Assembly (NCBI RefSeq): GCF_008704855.1
Contig: NZ_CP023691.1
Location: 1,798,001 to 1,862,000 of the forward strand
Length of the DNA stretch: 64,000 bases
Source: Streptomyces platensis
GTDB taxonomy: Bacteria; Actinomycetota; Actinomycetes; Streptomycetales; Streptomycetaceae
Direction: 5' to 3'
Every line of letters starts with the position of its first letter. The stretch's first letter is position 1. Below, piece by piece: positions 16,751 to 33,035 of this stretch. Both the position numbers and the translations under genes were made by a program. The notes below the pieces were generated by a model. That model was not told the DNA's origin and did not search any database. It was given only the letters and a program-made list of their open reading frames with translations.

Positions 16751-17536
16751 TTAGACCGGAGTCACGTACGCGCCCGCGATACCGCCGTCGACCAGGAACT
16801 CGGCGGCGTTGACGAACGAGGAGTCGTCGCTGGCGAGGAAGGCGACCGCGGAGGCGATCTCCTCCGGCTCGGCGAACCGGCCGACCGGGACGTGCACCAG
16901 ACGGCGCGCGGCGCGCTCGGGGTCCTTGGCGAACAGCTCCTTGAGCAGCGGGGTGTTGACCGGCCCCGGGCACAGGGCGTTGACCCGGATGCCCTCGCGG
17001 GCGAACTGCACGCCCAGTTCGCGGGACATGGACAGCACGCCGCCCTTGGAGGCGGTGTAGCTGATCTGGGAGGTGGCGGCGCCCATGACGGCCACGAAGG
17101 ACGCGGTGTTGATGATGGAGCCGCGGCCCTGGCGCTGCATGTAGGGCAGTGCGTGCTTGCAGCAGAGGTAGACCGAGGTGAGGTTGACCTCCTGGACGCG
17201 CTTCCAGGCGTCCAGGCCGGTGGTGAGGATCGAGTCGTCGTCGGGCGGGGAGATCCCGGCGTTGTTGAAGGCGATGTCGACCGAGCCGTAGGTGTCGAAG
17301 GCGGTCTTGTACAGCGCCTCGACCTGGTCGGAGTCGGTCACATCGACCTGGACGTAGAGGCCGCCGACCTCGGCGGCCGCGGCCTTGCCCGCCGTCTCGT
17401 CGATGTCGGCACAGACGACGTTGGCACCTTCGGAGGCCAGTCGGCGGGCGGTGGCCAGGCCGATGCCGCTGCCGGCACCGGTGATCACGGCGGTACGGCC
17501 GACGAGGCGGCGGCACACTGCGGTCTGCTCGGTCAC
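16751..17536 (-). CDS. SDR-family NAD(P)-dependent oxidoreductase of the amine cluster
   Basis: The 261-aa classical SDR has the Rossmann motif TGAGSGIG (about 20-27), NNAG (FNNAGIS), and the catalytic Ser (INTASF) with Tyr-x3-Lys in SYTASKGG. Asp after the beta-2 strand (VVCADIDE) favours NAD over NADP. It is the third gene of glnA4-like/ALDH/SDR and starts at a GTG that overlaps the ALDH TGA (GTGA). In a gamma-glutamylethanolamide pathway it would oxidise the alcohol of the glutamylated amine to an aldehyde for the next enzyme. That role is inferred from gene order. Confidence 0.9.
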   Translation of the reverse strand: MTEQTAVCRRLVGRTAVITGAGSGIGLATARRLASEGANVVCADIDETAGKAAAAEVGGLYVQVDVTDSDQVEALYKTAFDTYGSVDIAFNNAGISPPDDDSILTTGLDAWKRVQEVNLTSVYLCCKHALPYMQRQGRGSIINTASFVAVMGAATSQISYTASKGGVLSMSRELGVQFAREGIRVNALCPGPVNTPLLKELFAKDPERAARRLVHVPVGRFAEPEEIASAVAFLASDDSSFVNAAEFLVDGGIAGAYVTPV

Positions 17537-18903
17537 TTGGTCTCCTCGGTGCTGATGAAGATGTTCTTGGTCTCGGTGAAGGCGGTCAGTGCATCGGGGC
17601 CCAGCTCACGGCCGAGACCGGACTGCTTGAACCCGCCGAAGGGGGTCCAATAGCGCACGGCGCTGTGGGAGTTGACGGAGAGGTTGCCGGCCGCGACGCC
17701 GCGCGAGACCCGCAGGGCGCGGCCGACGTCACGGGTCCAGAGCGAGCCGGCCAGCCCGTAGTCACCGGCGTTGGCGAGCCGGACGGCGTGGGCCTCGTCG
17801 TCGAAGGGGAGGACGACCGCGACCGGGCCGAAGATCTCCTCGACGGCCGTACGGTCCTCGGGGCGGCCCTCCAGGACGGTGGCCGGGTACCAGAAGCCCT
17901 TGCCGGCGGGTGCCTCGCCGCGGATGGCGGCCGGGGCGTCCTCGGGGACGAAGGACCGCACCCGCTCGCGCTGGGCGGCGGAGATCAGCGGGCCCATCTG
18001 GGTGGCGGGGTCGGCCGGGTCGCCGACGGTGAACGCCTTGACCGCGGGCTCCAGCAGCTCCATGAAGCGGTCGTAGACGGAGCGCTGGACGAGGATGCGG
18101 CTGCGGGCGCAGCAGTCCTGGCCGGTGTTGTCGAGGAAGGAGCCAGGGGCGGCGGCCGCGGCGGCCTCGATGTCGGCGTCTGCGAAGACGATGTTGGGGC
18201 TCTTGCCGCCGAGTTCGAGGGTGAGCCGCTTGGTCTGGGTGGCGCAGCGGGCGGCGATCTGCCGGCCGGTGGCGGTGGAGCCGGTGAAGACGACCTTGGC
18301 GACGCCGGGGTGGTCGACCAGCGCGGTGCCGGTGACCGGCCCCTCGCCGGGCAGGACCTGGAAGAGGCCCTCGGGCAGGCCTGCCTCCAGGGCGAGTTCG
18401 GCGAGCTCGATCGCGGTGAGCGGGGTGGTCTCGGCGGGCTTGAGGAGGACCGCGTTGCCGGCCGCGAGCGCGGGGGCGGTGCCCCAGGCGGCGATCGGCA
18501 TCGGGAAGTTCCAGGGGGCGATGACGGCGACGACGCCGAGCGGCTCCTGGACGGTGATGTTGAGTCCGCCGGCGACCGGGATCTGGGTGCCGGTCAGCCG
18601 CTCCACTCCCCCTGCGGCGTAGTGCAGCAGATCGCGGACGTTGCCCGCTTCCCACCGGGCGTTGCCCAGCGGGTGGCCCGCCTCCTTGAGTTCGAGGGCG
18701 GCAAGCGGCTCGATGTGCGCGTCGACGACCTCGGCGAAGCGGCGCAGGATGCGGGCCCGGTCGCCGGGTGCCACCGCGGCCCAGGATTCCTGGGCGGCCG
18801 CGGCCCGGCGGACCGCCGCGTCGACCTCTTCGGGAGAGGTGGTGGGGACGGTGGCCACCACCTCCTCGGTCGCCGGGTTGAGAATCTTCAGCTCGTGCAA
18901 CAC
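17533..18903 (-). CDS. Aldehyde dehydrogenase of the amine cluster (PuuC-like)
   Basis: The 456-aa ALDH has APWNFPM (cofactor loop), FTGSTATGRQI, the general-base Glu230 in LTLELGGKSPNIVF and the catalytic Cys264 in NTGQDCCARSRI. The neighbouring Cys265 is not the canonical position. EEIFGPVAVVLPF and the C-terminal FGGFKQSGLGRELG are also present. The GTG at 18903 (VLHELKILNPATEE) has AAGGAA upstream and starts only 10 bp after the ligase stop. It oxidises an aldehyde intermediate with NAD. By comparison with the E. coli Puu pathway it would act on a gamma-glutamyl aminoaldehyde. Confidence 0.95.
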   Translation of the reverse strand: MLHELKILNPATEEVVATVPTTSPEEVDAAVRRAAAAQESWAAVAPGDRARILRRFAEVVDAHIEPLAALELKEAGHPLGNARWEAGNVRDLLHYAAGGVERLTGTQIPVAGGLNITVQEPLGVVAVIAPWNFPMPIAAWGTAPALAAGNAVLLKPAETTPLTAIELAELALEAGLPEGLFQVLPGEGPVTGTALVDHPGVAKVVFTGSTATGRQIAARCATQTKRLTLELGGKSPNIVFADADIEAAAAAAPGSFLDNTGQDCCARSRILVQRSVYDRFMELLEPAVKAFTVGDPADPATQMGPLISAAQRERVRSFVPEDAPAAIRGEAPAGKGFWYPATVLEGRPEDRTAVEEIFGPVAVVLPFDDEAHAVRLANAGDYGLAGSLWTRDVGRALRVSRGVAAGNLSVNSHSAVRYWTPFGGFKQSGLGRELGPDALTAFTETKNIFISTEETK

Positions 18904-18913
18904 GTGCGGTTCC

Positions 18914-20281
18914 TTACATGCGCTCGAAGGAGCGGAAGCGCTCCCAGTCCGTGACGGCGGCGTCGTAGGCGTCCTGCTCGACGCGGGCCATGTGGCGGTA
19001 GTGGTCGACGACCTCGTCGCCGAACGCCGCCCGGGCGATCGGGCTCCGCTCCCACAGCTCGGCGGCCTCGCGCAGCGTCGTGGGGACATGGGCGGCGTCG
19101 CCGGTGTAGGCGTTGCCGGTGGTCGCCTCGGGGAGCTCCAGCTCGTGCTCTATGCCGTACAGACCCGCCGCGACCATGCCGGCGACCGCCAGGTAGGGGT
19201 TCACATCGCCGCCGGGCAGCCGGTTCTCCAGGCGGTGGGCGCGGCCGTGGCCGACCACCCGCAGGGCGCAGGTGCGGTTGTCGGGGCCCCAGGCGACGGC
19301 GGTGGGCGCGAAGGAGCCGGGGCGGAAGCGCTTGTAGGAGTTGATGTTGGGCGCGTAGAGGAGCGTGAAGTCACGCATCGCGGCGACCTGGCCCGCCAGG
19401 AAGTGCTGCATGGTCTTCGACATGCCGTACGGGCCGTCGTCGTCGGCCAGCACCGGCCGCCCGTCCTCGTCCTGGAGCGAGAGGTGGATATGACAGGAGT
19501 TGCCCTCGCGCTCGTCGTACTTCGCCATGAAGGTGAGCGACATGCCCTCCTGGGCGGCGATCTCCTTGGCGCCGGTCTTGTAGATCGCGTGCTGGTCGCA
19601 GGTGGTGAGCGCCTCGTCGTAGACGAACACGATCTCGTGCTGGCCGAGGTTGCACTCGCCCTTGGCGGACTCGACGGTCATGCCGGCCGCGCCCATCTCG
19701 TTGCGGATGCGGCGCAGCACGGGTTCGACGCGGCCGGTGCCGAGGACGGAGTAGTCGCCGTTCCACTGGTTCGCGGGGTTCATCTCGCGGTAGCCGCGGG
19801 ACCAGGCGTCCTCGTAGGAGTCCTTGAAGAGCATGAACTCCAGCTCGGTGCCGGCGTACGCGCTCCAGCCGCGCTCGGCGAGCCGGTCGAGCTGGCGGCG
19901 CAGGATCTGCCGGGGCGAGGCGACGACCGGCGAGCCGTCGTGCCAGGCGAGGTCGGCGGTGATCAGGGCGGTGCCGGCGTTCCAGGGGGTGCGGCGCAGG
20001 GTGCCGGGGTCGCCGTGCATGGCGAAGTCGCCGTAGCCACGCTCCCAGGAGGACATGGCGTAGCCCTCGACGGTGTTGAGGTCGACATCGACGGCGAGGA
20101 GGTAGTTGCAGCCCTCCGTACCGTGGTCGAGGACGGTGTCCAGGAAATATCGGGCGGCGAACCGCTTGCCCTGGAGCCTGCCTTGCATATCGGTGAAGGC
20201 GAGGACGACAGTGTCGATCTCCCCGGCGTCGACGAGGACTCTGAGCTCCTCGACGGAGAGTGGGGGCGTGCGGTCTGCCAC
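18914..20281 (-). CDS. glnA4: Glutamine-synthetase-like gamma-glutamylamide ligase (GlnA4/PuuA type)
   Basis: The 455-aa type-I-like glutamine synthetase fold has an N-terminal beta-grasp (about 10-105) and a catalytic domain with AGTELEFMLF, AKGECNLGQHEIVF (metal ligands), GNSCHIHLSLQ and RLENRLPGGDVNPYLAVA. It lacks the adenylylation segment of GlnA. It probably joins glutamate to an amine with ATP, as PuuA does with putrescine and S. coelicolor GlnA4 does with ethanolamine. The GTG at 20281 follows AGGAGG by 6 nt; an upstream GTG at 20299 lies before that site. It is the first gene of a three-gene operon and divergent from a FadR-type regulator. Confidence 0.9.
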   Translation of the reverse strand: MADRTPPLSVEELRVLVDAGEIDTVVLAFTDMQGRLQGKRFAARYFLDTVLDHGTEGCNYLLAVDVDLNTVEGYAMSSWERGYGDFAMHGDPGTLRRTPWNAGTALITADLAWHDGSPVVASPRQILRRQLDRLAERGWSAYAGTELEFMLFKDSYEDAWSRGYREMNPANQWNGDYSVLGTGRVEPVLRRIRNEMGAAGMTVESAKGECNLGQHEIVFVYDEALTTCDQHAIYKTGAKEIAAQEGMSLTFMAKYDEREGNSCHIHLSLQDEDGRPVLADDDGPYGMSKTMQHFLAGQVAAMRDFTLLYAPNINSYKRFRPGSFAPTAVAWGPDNRTCALRVVGHGRAHRLENRLPGGDVNPYLAVAGMVAAGLYGIEHELELPEATTGNAYTGDAAHVPTTLREAAELWERSPIARAAFGDEVVDHYRHMARVEQDAYDAAVTDWERFRSFERM

Positions 20282-20315
20282 GGTATTGCCTCCTGTCACT
20301 GCATCCGGAGGTCAT

Positions 20316-20336
20316 AAGGTAGGCACACGAACCATT
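20316..20336. promoter_or_regulatory. Candidate operator A of the FadR-type regulator
   Basis: AAGGTA-N8-AACCATT lies between the divergent ligase and regulator genes, starting 35 bp upstream of the ligase GTG. The same pattern with identical spacing occurs at 21164-21184. The centre also matches at GC in positions 8-9. Confidence 0.6.
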
Positions 20337-20354
20337 GATTGGGAAGGGGTATCG

Positions 20355-21086
20355 ATGGAGAGTGCGGCTGATCGGCTGGCACCGGTGCTGCGGCCGGTGC
20401 GCGCGGGCAACGGTTTCGAGGAAGCCCTGGAGCAGATACTCCAGATCGTCCGGCTCGGCCTGGTGCCCCAGGGCGAACGGCTGCCCGCGGAACGGGAGTT
20501 GGCCGAACGGCTCCAGATCAGCCGGGTCACCCTGCGCGAGGTACTGAAGGTACTCCAGGACGAGGGCCTGGTGGAGAGCCGGCGCGGGCGCTACGGCGGC
20601 ACGTTCGTCCGGGTGCGCACGGAGAACCACGGCGAGGCCGAGCTGCGGCGCCGGATCGAGAAGGTCGACGTCGAGGACACCCTGCGCTTCCGGGAGGTGC
20701 TGGAGGTGGGCGCGGCCGGACTGTGCGCCGCCCACGGACTGTCCGACGCACAGAGCGACCGGCTGCGCACGGCGCTCGCGGCCACCCAGGACGCCCCGCT
20801 CGCCGATTACCGCAGGCGGGACACCCTGCTGCATCTGACGCTCGCGGAGCTGTCCGGCTCACCGTCGCTGGCGGCGCAGTACGCGGCGGTCCGGGCCCGG
20901 GTGAACGATCTCCTGGACTGCATTCCGCTGCTCGTCCGGAATCTGGAGCACTCCCAGACCCAGCACACCGCACTGGTCGAGGCGGTGCTGGAGGGCGATG
21001 CGGACGGGGCGCGCGAGGTGATGCGGGAGCACTGCTGCGGCACCGCGGCGCTGCTGCGGGGCTTCCTGACCGCCCCGCCACCCTGA
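20355..21086 (+). CDS. GntR/FadR-family regulator of the amine cluster
   Basis: The 243-aa protein has an N-terminal winged helix (about 20-95: LPAERELAERLQISRVTLREVLKVLQDEGLV and RRGRYGGTFV) and a C-terminal FCD ligand-binding domain (about 110-235: LRFREVLEVGAAGLCAAHG, RRRDTLLHLTLAELSGSP, HTALVEAVLEGDADGAREVMREH) with His/Asp metal-binding positions of the FadR/VanR class. The ATG at 20355 has GGAAGGGG upstream. It sits between the divergent operon it probably controls and a permease gene. Candidate operators flank it on both sides. The inducer may be the amine or a gamma-glutamylated derivative. Confidence 0.92.
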   Translation: MESAADRLAPVLRPVRAGNGFEEALEQILQIVRLGLVPQGERLPAERELAERLQISRVTLREVLKVLQDEGLVESRRGRYGGTFVRVRTENHGEAELRRRIEKVDVEDTLRFREVLEVGAAGLCAAHGLSDAQSDRLRTALAATQDAPLADYRRRDTLLHLTLAELSGSPSLAAQYAAVRARVNDLLDCIPLLVRNLEHSQTQHTALVEAVLEGDADGAREVMREHCCGTAALLRGFLTAPPP

Positions 21087-21163
21087 GCACCCGCACGGGG
21101 ACGGTGCGCGCGCGTTCACCATTCTTTTACGTACAGGTCTTGCGCTGCGCCGACCCGCCAGCA

Positions 21164-21184
21164 AAGGTATGCGGCTAAACCTTT
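21164..21184. promoter_or_regulatory. Candidate operator B upstream of the permease
   Basis: AAGGTA-N8-AACCTTT is the core of a longer perfect inverted repeat: GCAAAGGT (21161-21168) faces ACCTTTGC (21179-21186). It ends 33 bp before the permease ATG. It matches operator A in sequence and spacing. Confidence 0.65.
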
Positions 21185-21218
21185 GCTCGTTATCCCCTCG
21201 GCGAGGCAGGAGCGGCTC

Positions 21219-22688
21219 ATGGCCGACAACACGGAAACGCAGACCGCACCGCCCGCTGGGTCCGCGGGCGGCGCATCCCCCGACGAGACCTATCTGGAGC
21301 GGCGGACACTGCGCCGCGGCAGCGCGGGACCGCTGCTGCTGACCGGCCTGGGCGTCGCCTATGTCGTCTCCGGCGACTTCTCGGGATGGAACAACGGTCT
21401 GGCGCAGGGCGGCTTCGGCGGCCTGGCGATCGCCGCCGTCCTGATGGGCCTGATGTACACCTGTCTGGTCTTCGCGCTGGCGGAGCTGGCCTCGATCCTG
21501 CCGACCGCGGGCGGCGGCTACGGCTTCGCCCGGCGCGCCCTGGGCACCTGGGGCGGCTTTCTGACCGGCACCGCGATCCTGATCGAATATGTGCTGGCGC
21601 CCGCCGCGATCTCCATCTTCATCGGTGACTACGTCGAATCACTCGGCCTGTTCGGGCTGCACTCCAGCTGGCCGGTCTATCTCGCCTGCTTTGCGATCTT
21701 CATCGGGATCCATCTGTGGGGCGTGGGCGAGGCACTGCGCTTCAGCCTGATCGTCACCGCCATCGCGGTCGCCGCGGTCGTCGTCTTCGCGATCGCCGCA
21801 CTGACCGACTTCCATGTCGACTCGCTCAACGACATCCCCGTCAAGGCCGGCGCCTTCGGGGCCAACTCCTGGCTGCCGTTCGGCATCCTGGGGATCTGGG
21901 CGGCCTTCCCGTTCGGTATGTGGTTCTTCCTGGGCGTCGAGGGCGTCCCGCTGGCGGCCGAGGAGACCAAGGACCCGGCCCGCTCCCTGCCCAAGGCGAT
22001 GGCCGCCGCCATGGGCATCCTGCTGGTGCTCGCACTGATCACCTTTGTCGCCGCGACCGGCGCACGCGGCTCGGCGGCGATCCAGTCGGTGGGCGATCCG
22101 CTGGTCCAGGCGCTCCAGCCGCACGGCGAGCCCACCACCGTCAGCCGGATCGTCAACTACGCGGGGCTCGCGGGCCTGGTGGCCTCCTTCTTCTCCCTGA
22201 TCTTCGCCGGTTCCCGCCAGCTCTTCGCGCTCTCCCGGGCCGGCTATCTGCCCCGCTTCCTCTCCCTGACCAGCCGCCGCAAGGCCCCCTACCTGGGCCT
22301 GCTGGTGCCCGGCGCACTGGGCTTCGCGCTCGCCGCGGCCACCGGCGACGGCGCCCGGATGCTCAATGTCGCGGTCTTCGGCGCCACCATCTCCTATGCG
22401 CTGATGGCGCTCTCGCACATCGTGCTGCGCCGCCGTGAGCCCGGACTGCCCCGCCCCTACCGCACCCCCGGCGGCATGCTGACCTCGTCCATCGCGTTCG
22501 TCCTGGCCTGCTCCGCGCTGGTGGCGACGTTCCTGGTGGACAAGGAAGCCGCCTTCATCGCCCTCGGTGTCTACGTCGTGGCGCTCGCCTACTTCGCCTT
22601 CTACTCCCGGCACCGGCTGGTGGCCGCGGCACCCGAGGAGGAGTTCGCGGCGCTGGCCGCGGCGGAGGCGGAGCTCGAACGCACCTGA
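21219..22688 (+). CDS. APC-superfamily amine/amino-acid permease (ethanolamine permease-like)
   Basis: The 489-aa membrane protein has about 12 helices. The first helix region carries GLGVAYVVSGDFSGWNNGLA, a pattern I associate with ethanolamine permeases (EutP/EatP-like), followed by LASILPTAGGGYGFARRALG. Cytoplasmic ends are hydrophilic. The ATG at 21219 has GGCAGGAG upstream and lies just after operator B; an in-frame ATG at 21183 would fall inside the operator. It is transcribed with the PuuD-like gene downstream (105 bp gap containing a hairpin). It probably imports the amine used by the divergent operon. Confidence 0.9.
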   Translation: MADNTETQTAPPAGSAGGASPDETYLERRTLRRGSAGPLLLTGLGVAYVVSGDFSGWNNGLAQGGFGGLAIAAVLMGLMYTCLVFALAELASILPTAGGGYGFARRALGTWGGFLTGTAILIEYVLAPAAISIFIGDYVESLGLFGLHSSWPVYLACFAIFIGIHLWGVGEALRFSLIVTAIAVAAVVVFAIAALTDFHVDSLNDIPVKAGAFGANSWLPFGILGIWAAFPFGMWFFLGVEGVPLAAEETKDPARSLPKAMAAAMGILLVLALITFVAATGARGSAAIQSVGDPLVQALQPHGEPTTVSRIVNYAGLAGLVASFFSLIFAGSRQLFALSRAGYLPRFLSLTSRRKAPYLGLLVPGALGFALAAATGDGARMLNVAVFGATISYALMALSHIVLRRREPGLPRPYRTPGGMLTSSIAFVLACSALVATFLVDKEAAFIALGVYVVALAYFAFYSRHRLVAAAPEEEFAALAAAEAELERT

Positions 22689-22793: not shown

Positions 22794-23492
22794 ATGTCCC
22801 AGCCCCTCATCGGCATCAGCACGTACCAGGAAGAGGCCCGGTGGGGGGTGTGGTCGCTGCCCGCCGCGCTGGTGCCCGCCGGGTACCCGAAGCTGGTGCA
22901 GCGCTCGGGCGGGCTGGCCGCGCTGCTGCCGCCGGGCGATCCGGCCACCGCCGCCGCGGCCGTCGCCCGCCTGGACGGTCTGGTGATCGCCGGCGGCGCG
23001 GATGTCCAGCCGGCGCGCTACGGCGCCGAGCCGCACCCCAGGACCGGCCCGCCCGCCCTGGACCGGGACGCCTGGGAACTGGCCCTGATCGAGGCCGCGT
23101 TGGCGGGCGGCGTCCCGCTGCTGGGCATCTGCCGCGGACTCCAGCTGCTGAACGTGGCGCTGGGCGGCTCCCTGATCCAGCACCTCGACGGGCACGCCGG
23201 AGCACCCGGGGTCTTCGAGCAGCACGAGATCAAGCCGGTCCCCGGGACGCTGCTGGGCCGTACGCTCCCCGAGCCGGTCGCCGTGCCGACGTACCACCAC
23301 CAGGCCGTGGACCGGATCGGCCGCGGGCTGCTGGCCTCGGCGTACGCGGAGGACGGCACCATCGAGGCGCTGGAACTCCCGGGCGCCTACGGCTTCGCGC
23401 TGGCGGTGCAGTGGCACCCGGAGGCCGGGGAGGACACCCGGGTGATGGACGCGCTGGTCGCGGCGGCACGCGGGGCGTCCCCGGCGGAGTGA
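22794..23492 (+). CDS. puuD: Gamma-glutamyl hydrolase, class I glutamine amidotransferase-like (PuuD type)
   Basis: The 232-aa peptidase C26 family protein has nucleophile Cys113 in LLGICRGLQLLN, and His208 with Glu210 in VQWHPEAGED complete the triad. IAGGADVQPARYG and YHHQAVDR are typical of PuuD, which hydrolyses gamma-glutamyl-GABA in E. coli. Here it would release glutamate from the oxidised gamma-glutamyl product, the last step of the cluster. It follows the permease on the same strand and ends 23 bp from a convergent LysR gene. Substrate identity is inferred. Confidence 0.92.
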   Translation: MSQPLIGISTYQEEARWGVWSLPAALVPAGYPKLVQRSGGLAALLPPGDPATAAAAVARLDGLVIAGGADVQPARYGAEPHPRTGPPALDRDAWELALIEAALAGGVPLLGICRGLQLLNVALGGSLIQHLDGHAGAPGVFEQHEIKPVPGTLLGRTLPEPVAVPTYHHQAVDRIGRGLLASAYAEDGTIEALELPGAYGFALAVQWHPEAGEDTRVMDALVAAARGASPAE

Positions 23493-32132: not shown

Positions 32133-32151
32133 TTAGGTTAGGTATACCTAA
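32133..32151. promoter_or_regulatory. Iron box (DmdR/IdeR-type operator)
   Basis: TTAGGTTAGGTATACCTAA is a 19-bp near-perfect match to the DmdR1/IdeR consensus, including the TAGG repeat and CCTAA half. It lies 27 bp upstream of the siderophore-interacting protein start and would repress it when iron is sufficient. Confidence 0.85.
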
Positions 32152-32177
32152 TAACCTTGGCGTCAGGGGAGATTGCC

Positions 32178-33035
32178 GTGGCAGTAGAGCGTCCGTCCCG
32201 CAAGAAGCCCGCCGTGCACCGCGCCCGGGTGCGGCGCACCGAGCAGCTCACGCCGCACATGGTCCGGGTGGTGCTGGGCGGTGAAGGGCTGGTGGAGTTC
32301 GCCGCGGGCGAGTACTCCGACCATTACGTCAAGCTGGTCTTCCCGCGCCCCGGCGTCGTCTACCCCGAGCCGTTCGACATCGCGCAGATCCGGGCCGACT
32401 TCCCGCGTGACCAGTGGCCCAGCACCCGTACGTACACCGTCCGCAGCTGGGACGCCGAGACCCGCGAGCTGACCGTGGACTTCGTGGTGCACGGCGACGA
32501 GGGCCTGGCCGGTCCCTGGGCGGCCGCGGCACAGCCCGGTGACGAGATCTTCCTGCTCGGCCCCGGCGGCGCCTATGCCCCGGAGGCCGGCGCCGACTGG
32601 CATCTGCTGGCGGGCGACGAGAGCGCGCTGCCGGCCATCGCGGCCTCGCTCGCCCGGATGCCCGCGGGGGTGCCGGTGCACGCCTTCATCGAGGTGGCGG
32701 GACCGGAGGAGCGCCAGGAGCTGCACATACCGGCCGGCGCCGAGGTCACCTGGCTGTACCGTGGCGGCGCCCCGGTCGGCCGCGAACTGGTCGCCGCCGT
32801 CCGGGCGTTGACCTTCCCGTCCGGCCGGGTCCAGGCGTTCGTGCACGGCGAGGCCGGCTTCGTGAAGGAACTGCGGCGGCTGCTCCGCGTCGAGCGCGAG
32901 ATCCCCCGCGAGGACCTGTCCATCTCCGGCTACTGGCGCACCGGCCACGACGAGGACGGCTGGCAGGCCGCCAAGCGCGACTGGAACCAGCAGGTCGAGG
33001 CCGAACAGGAGCCCACCGCGGCGGCGGCTTCCTGA
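32178..33035 (+). CDS. Siderophore-interacting protein (FAD-dependent ferric-siderophore reductase)
   Basis: The 285-aa protein has an FAD-binding beta-barrel (about 15-135: VRVVLGGEGL, PSTRTYTVRSWD, VDFVVHGDEGLAGPWAA) and a C-terminal NAD(P)H domain (HLLAGDESALPAIAASL, VHGEAGFVKELRRLL, ISGYWRTGHDEDGW). It belongs to the ViuB/YqjH/SIP family that reduces Fe(III)-siderophores in the cytoplasm to free the iron. GTG at 32178 is chosen with GGGGA 8 nt upstream. The upstream iron box indicates iron-dependent repression. There are no siderophore biosynthesis or uptake genes alongside. Confidence 0.95.
   Translation: MAVERPSRKKPAVHRARVRRTEQLTPHMVRVVLGGEGLVEFAAGEYSDHYVKLVFPRPGVVYPEPFDIAQIRADFPRDQWPSTRTYTVRSWDAETRELTVDFVVHGDEGLAGPWAAAAQPGDEIFLLGPGGAYAPEAGADWHLLAGDESALPAIAASLARMPAGVPVHAFIEVAGPEERQELHIPAGAEVTWLYRGGAPVGRELVAAVRALTFPSGRVQAFVHGEAGFVKELRRLLRVEREIPREDLSISGYWRTGHDEDGWQAAKRDWNQQVEAEQEPTAAAAS

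Follow-up and report, generated by a model that had tools for sequence, protein, structure and literature searches.

The locus and its regulator

The window, as we call the whole stretch of 64,000 nucleotides of Streptomyces platensis DNA that was analysed, contains a gene cluster of the ethanolamine (gamma-glutamylethanolamide) pathway (Table 1). By its gene context, the regulator can be taken as orthologous to EpuRI (SCO1614): it is encoded divergently from glnA4 and accompanied by genes for an aldehyde dehydrogenase (ALDH), a short-chain dehydrogenase (SDR) and a hydrolase. The counterpart cluster in S. coelicolor is SCO1610-SCO1615, where GlnA4 is a gamma-glutamylethanolamide synthetase (PMC6529630) and EpuRI is a FadR-type repressor of glnA4 (PMC6529630, PMC8998196).

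Table 1. Genes and sequence features of the ethanolamine locus, in window positions
Feature	Position	Strand	Remarks
SDR	16751..17536	-	third gene of the glnA4 transcription unit
ALDH	17533..18903	-	second gene of the glnA4 transcription unit
glnA4 orthologue, glutamine-synthetase-like	18914..20281	-	gamma-glutamylethanolamide synthetase by orthology with SCO1613
Left operator (UP), putative	20315..20336	.	TAAGGTAGGCACACGAACCATT; between the divergent glnA4 and epuRI
Inferred -10 of the glnA4 promoter	20316..20321	-	TACCTT; coincides with the left half-site; invariant in 81 loci
Inferred -35 of the glnA4 promoter	20340..20345	-	TTCCCA; 18-bp spacer; inside an invariant block
epuRI orthologue, FadR-subfamily GntR repressor	20355..21086	+	243 aa; GntR wHTH and FCD
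Perfect inverted repeat	21161..21186	.	GCAAAGGT-N10-ACCTTTGC; encloses the right operator
Right operator (DN), putative	21163..21184	.	AAAGGTATGCGGCTAAACCTTT; between epuRI and the permease gene
Ethanolamine permease	21219..22688	+	TIGR00908, 484 bits against a cut-off of 382
Gamma-glutamyl hydrolase-like class I glutamine amidotransferase (Peptidase C26)	22794..23492	+	co-directional with the permease gene

The first-pass annotation of this DNA had taken the regulator to be of the FadR type, and the profile matches agree with this. An N-terminal GntR wHTH (PF00392, 51.8 bits against a cut-off of 27, residues 23-85) is combined with a C-terminal FCD domain (PF07729, 66.7 bits against a cut-off of 24.3, residues 109-226). 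The predicted model (pLDDT 88) has an all-helical C-terminal domain, and its nearest folds are Atu1419/VanR, which is the best match, NanR and CGL2915. The predicted metal ligands of the FCD domain, D156, H160, H204 and H226, show no variation in 43 orthologues down to 42% identity, nor do R113, R153, N196 and H199, which lie within or close to the pocket. In the DNA-binding part the same is true of E22, E46, R47, S56, R57, T59 and R61 and of the wing RGRxGG. The wHTH thus keeps the FadR-subfamily arginines of ER, SR and TLR, and the latter two presumably lie at the operator interface, as in FadR-DNA structures. EpuRI is single-copy in nearly all Streptomyces genomes. The peptides DTMLHL and NDLLDC, encoded by the published RT primers for SCO1614, read DTLLHL and NDLLDC in S. 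platensis, a comparison limited to these peptides.

Two matching sites flank epuRI

The pattern AAGGTA-N8-AACCWTT had been noted on both sides of the regulator gene, with identical spacing. Reading of the sequence and a pattern scan find the two copies where they were placed, as AAGGTAGGCACACGAACCATT at 20316-20336 and AAGGTATGCGGCTAAACCTTT at 21164-21184, with the spacing as described, and the perfect repeat said to surround the second copy is there as well (Table 1). The matches to the pattern stand, but its extent does not, as the symmetric site is a 22-bp palindrome, AAWGGT-N10-ACCWTT, and therefore one base longer on the left. The right copy fits this palindrome perfectly and the left copy has one mismatch (T for A at the first base). 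A central GC shared by the two copies had also been regarded as a feature, which we do not find, since about six positions in the middle are variable among orthologues.

The sites are rare. AAGGT-N10-ACCWTT has two exact matches in the whole 8.5-Mb genome, both of them at epuRI, and AAGGTA-N10-CCWTT again returns the same pair and nothing else genome-wide. With at most two mismatches there are 4 matches in the window, compared with 0.04 in dinucleotide-preserving shuffles; two of them are the sites themselves, one is the palindromic site read in reverse and one is an iron box at 32139. The latter partial match stems from TTAGGTTAGGTATACCTAA at 32134-32152, a DtxR/DmdR-type iron box just 5' of a siderophore-interacting-protein-like ORF (32157-33035) and unrelated to EpuRI. 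When a larger regulon was sought in the S. platensis genome, the one-mismatch matches to AAGGTA-N10-CCWTT occurred at the level of a reversed-pattern control.

Conservation in Streptomyces

For the comparison within the genus we used 81 Streptomyces loci, namely 80 orthologous loci and the window. The first-pass annotation had proposed to look for the motif in the orthologous clusters of other Streptomyces, and it is found there: the left core is exact in 81/81 loci, and the right site occurs with at most one mismatch in 73/81 and with at most two in 79/81. The right site forms a conserved island of 22 informative positions between flanks that are almost without information. Taking the best match per 350 bp, 90% of the orthologous downstream regions have one with at most one mismatch, against 0.06% of shuffled ones. 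The left site has an invariant GGT..ACC core and the right site GGT..[AT]CC. Because TCC replaces ACC in many of the right sites, the half-sites are unequally constrained.

On the left side, further bases are conserved. The site itself has an additional invariant T at position one and A at position seven (81 loci), and the block TTGGGAAG at 20339-20346, which is 3-10 bases to the right of the site, is also invariant in the 81 loci and is kept even where the start codon and the ribosome-binding site sit elsewhere. This block probably belongs to the glnA4 promoter. It is plausible that TTCCCA-N18-TACCTT on the glnA4 strand acts as a -35/-10 pair, which would set the operator across the promoter. 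A consensus promoter scan of the region called no promoter.

These additional invariant bases, which resemble -10 and -35 elements, would fit a reading in which the left site is conserved merely as the core promoter of glnA4 and epuRI and the right site is the epuRI terminator; in S. platensis the right site is indeed a perfect inverted repeat after the stop codon. We consider this reading extremely improbable. The left and right regions have the operator bases in common but not the surrounding bases, and distant families keep the half-sites and their spacing at promoters that are rearranged. As to the terminator, no T-run was found at the right repeat, and the repeat is imperfect (AAGGTA...TCCATT) in most species, which speaks against a terminator, whose stem would not tolerate mismatches; we rejected it on these grounds.

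Distant families and the spacing of the half-sites

Outside Streptomyces, orthologues of 42-58% identity are mostly still linked to glnA4 and ALDH, with the gene order rearranged. Simply counting GGT-Nk-ACC in front of the regulator gene gave a weak signal in these distant genomes, because the site is there often found at the permease or glnA4 promoter. This problem was resolved by scanning with a matrix trained solely on Streptomyces sites, which we applied to 41 loci of other families. Its best match fell into the expected promoter regions in 30/41 loci; column-permuted matrices of the same composition reached 8.3 +/- 4.3 loci, and the best of 300 reached 29. Most of the misses are loci in which the glnA4 promoter lies outside the analysed stretch, or paralogues without the cluster. 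Typical sites of the distant families are AATGGTCTGGACTCAGACCTTT and AAAGGTAGGACACCAGACCTTT.

The spacing is conserved together with the half-sites. The distance between GT and AC is 10 bp in all Streptomyces sites. When gaps of 0-20 were scanned in the distant loci with the outer half-site AAWGGT alone, the peak was at GGT-N10-ACC (30 loci, 14.8 bits), followed by a gap of 11 (24 loci, 11.2 bits).

Replaced targets and scattered matches

In many Streptomyces loci the permease gene is missing and the hydrolase gene directly follows the regulator, with the right site retained just before the hydrolase gene. In five others (L002-L005 and L010) the ethanolamine permease is gone and a gene of similar length stands in its place, with the site still in front of it. 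The replacement gene in L002 and L004 encodes an unrelated permease of the APC type, which shares 86-87% identity with one of the genome G100, while in L003, L005 and L010 the replacement rests on the position and on similar gene spacing, the longest ORF being in another frame.

The APC permease of G100 lies far from the cluster (L158 5190-6734, TIGR00907-like) and is preceded by two sites, at L158 4982-5002 and 5108-5128. The motif, and not the gene, led to this unlinked copy. This speaks for the motif as well as for a role of the second permease in transport, and makes the permease a candidate for a second ethanolamine or amine carrier.

Other scattered exact matches in 199 Streptomyces genomes are no commoner than those of a reversed control pattern and are mostly single. 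Of the additional exact matches in the genus, the G100 pair alone resembles part of a regulon. One exact match (L160) lies just 5' of a chloride-channel-like ORF. Another, at L159 4477-4497 in the genome G025 and also present in G034, lies in the promoter of a GH18 chitinase gene; it is probably a DasR-type repeat and calls for caution when regulons are assigned from the pattern alone.

The site tracks the regulator

The regulator is encoded in 178 of the same 199 sampled Streptomyces genomes and absent from 21. An exact AAGGTA-N10-CCWTT is present in 178/178 genomes with the regulator and in 1/21 without it (Fisher p = 1e-26). As linkage of the whole cluster could explain this co-occurrence, we searched for GlnA4 in the regulator-less genomes. 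Five of them keep glnA4 (75-79% identity) together with ALDH and a divergent hydrolase gene, and the site was found in 0/5 of these. Consequently, it is the regulator that the site accompanies, rather than the ligase.

In the hydrolase-glnA4 intergenic region of three regulator-less clusters (L163-L165) we observe a different inverted repeat, ATCCAAATC...GATTTGGAT, also written ATCCAAATC...GATTTGGATC. It is present in at least three of the five clusters, the region being degenerate in L166 and L167, and suggests that a different regulator took over.

The presence and absence of the site also bear on the possibility that some unlinked factor other than EpuRI, such as the nitrogen regulator GlnR or a GntR protein like DasR, binds both sites and that EpuRI acts elsewhere. 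Clustered catabolic genes are often globally regulated. Furthermore, the DasR/chitinase repeat has the half-site TGGTCT in common with sites of distant orthologues, and the match in G025 and G034 is located in a chitinase promoter. Nevertheless, we regard an unlinked factor as highly unlikely, given that the site accompanies EpuRI in every genome that has it and is missing where glnA4 persists without the regulator. A global regulator would moreover be expected to have many sites, but there are only two here, and published work reports a lack of GlnR binding to the glnA4 promoter (PMC6529630, PMC8998196).

A proposed mode of regulation

The first-pass annotation had suggested that one regulator controls both transcription units. 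This has become the best-supported reading, as the motif tracks the regulator gene and recurs in the orthologous loci. Judging from sequence comparison, both sites are very probably operators of EpuRI, which is encoded between them and would control the genes for ethanolamine use; the right-hand permease-hydrolase unit, too, would be controlled by EpuRI.

In our proposal, an EpuRI dimer would most likely contact the GGT and the ACC of AAWGGT-N10-ACCWTT, which are separated by 10 bp. Bound to the left site, it would cover the glnA4 promoter, overlapping the putative -35 and -10 elements and the stretch between them, as well as the start of epuRI, and would therefore repress both glnA4-ALDH-SDR and its own gene. 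From the right site it would repress the permease-hydrolase unit. An inducer present when the cells grow on ethanolamine might bind in the presumably metal-containing pocket of the FCD domain and release EpuRI from the DNA. Metal-dependent FCD proteins are carboxylate binders. For this reason, a pathway intermediate that bears a carboxylate, such as gamma-glutamylethanolamide or gamma-glutamylglycine, seems a more likely inducer than ethanolamine itself.

The pairing of the sites could also mean that an EpuRI tetramer bridges them and loops out the regulator gene, as proposed for Atu1419 (VanR). The operators flank epuRI in nearly all Streptomyces loci, and Atu1419, the best fold match, is a tetramer that was seen looping DNA between palindromes 190 bp apart. 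However, the distances from site to site are 780-1009 bp and show no helical phasing (Rayleigh p about 0.1-0.3), so that we rejected looping by phased operators. Each Streptomyces site is also found at its own gene start, as expected of independent control, and bridging is in our view unlikely.

We found no mapped EpuRI binding site in the open-access papers searched, and within this literature the claim that the site had not been described before holds. According to a published EMSA study, His-EpuRI shifts fragments of eight promoters of S. coelicolor, among them the glnA4 and epuRI promoters and those of polyamine genes (PMC8998196). The S. platensis genome has no further exact site, which points, for the reported polyamine promoters, to another or weaker sequence or to unspecific interactions. 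The reported eight-target network may thus include weak or unspecific binding, and it can now be checked against the operator.

What we describe is, on the sequence evidence, a new putative operator of atypical geometry, to which an already known repressor would bind. It would supply the missing site for the repressor of a microcompartment-free ethanolamine pathway and make the regulon readable from sequence. In strains lacking the cluster permease, another permease gene can stand behind the same operator, which suggests a second type of ethanolamine carrier. Furthermore, with its widely spaced half-sites the operator lends itself well to the question of how distance on DNA is measured by GntR dimers.

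Comparison with known systems

The closest comparison is EpuRI of S. coelicolor, which has the same place and orientation beside glnA4 and is the same GntR/FCD protein as in S. platensis. The S. coelicolor cluster differs in that it is without the permease gene (PMC6529630), which carries the right site in S. platensis, and the polyamine targets claimed in S. coelicolor have no counterpart site in the S. platensis genome.

Operators of the FadR subfamily, such as those of FadR, LldR, PdhR, DgoR and UxuR, are likewise palindromes with a GT..AC core and A/T-rich outer flanks (PMC4494728). The putative EpuRI sites share this core but not the typical distance, as a survey gives 2 or 3 bp between GT and AC for the FadR subfamily and 4 bp for HutC (PMC4494728), compared with 10 bp at the EpuRI sites. 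The FCD regulator NanR of E. coli, which is among the nearest to EpuRI by sequence and fold, has a GGTAT half-site like the left half of the EpuRI site. It binds GGTATA direct repeats (PMC8012715) as three dimers, in contrast to the single inverted repeat at the EpuRI sites, and is thus also exceptional in the FadR subfamily, in another way than EpuRI.

In Atu1419 (VanR) of Agrobacterium fabrum, Zn is coordinated by one Asn and three His, ligands that D156, H160, H204 and H226 of EpuRI match in position type. Atu1419 is a tetramer, and its palindromic operator, ATGTATACAT, is compact with 10 bp, unlike the EpuRI site. The dre sites of DasR and NagR, which belong to the HutC subfamily, have the TGGTCT half-site that is also seen in the sites of distant EpuRI orthologues, but their halves are adjacent, as GT-N4-AC, unlike the N10 of EpuRI. 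The effector domain of DasR and NagR is UTRA, which has a fold other than FCD.

The EpuRI proteins might define a separate class of FCD/FadR operators, in which the usual GGT half-sites and arginines are used with the half-sites inverted 10 bp apart. This class would require the dimer, or a pair of dimers, to place the DNA-binding domains in an arrangement unlike that in the FadR, VanR and NanR complexes, and would mark ethanolamine-utilisation promoters, including those of unlinked permeases, across Actinomycetia. We see the case for such a class as evenly balanced.
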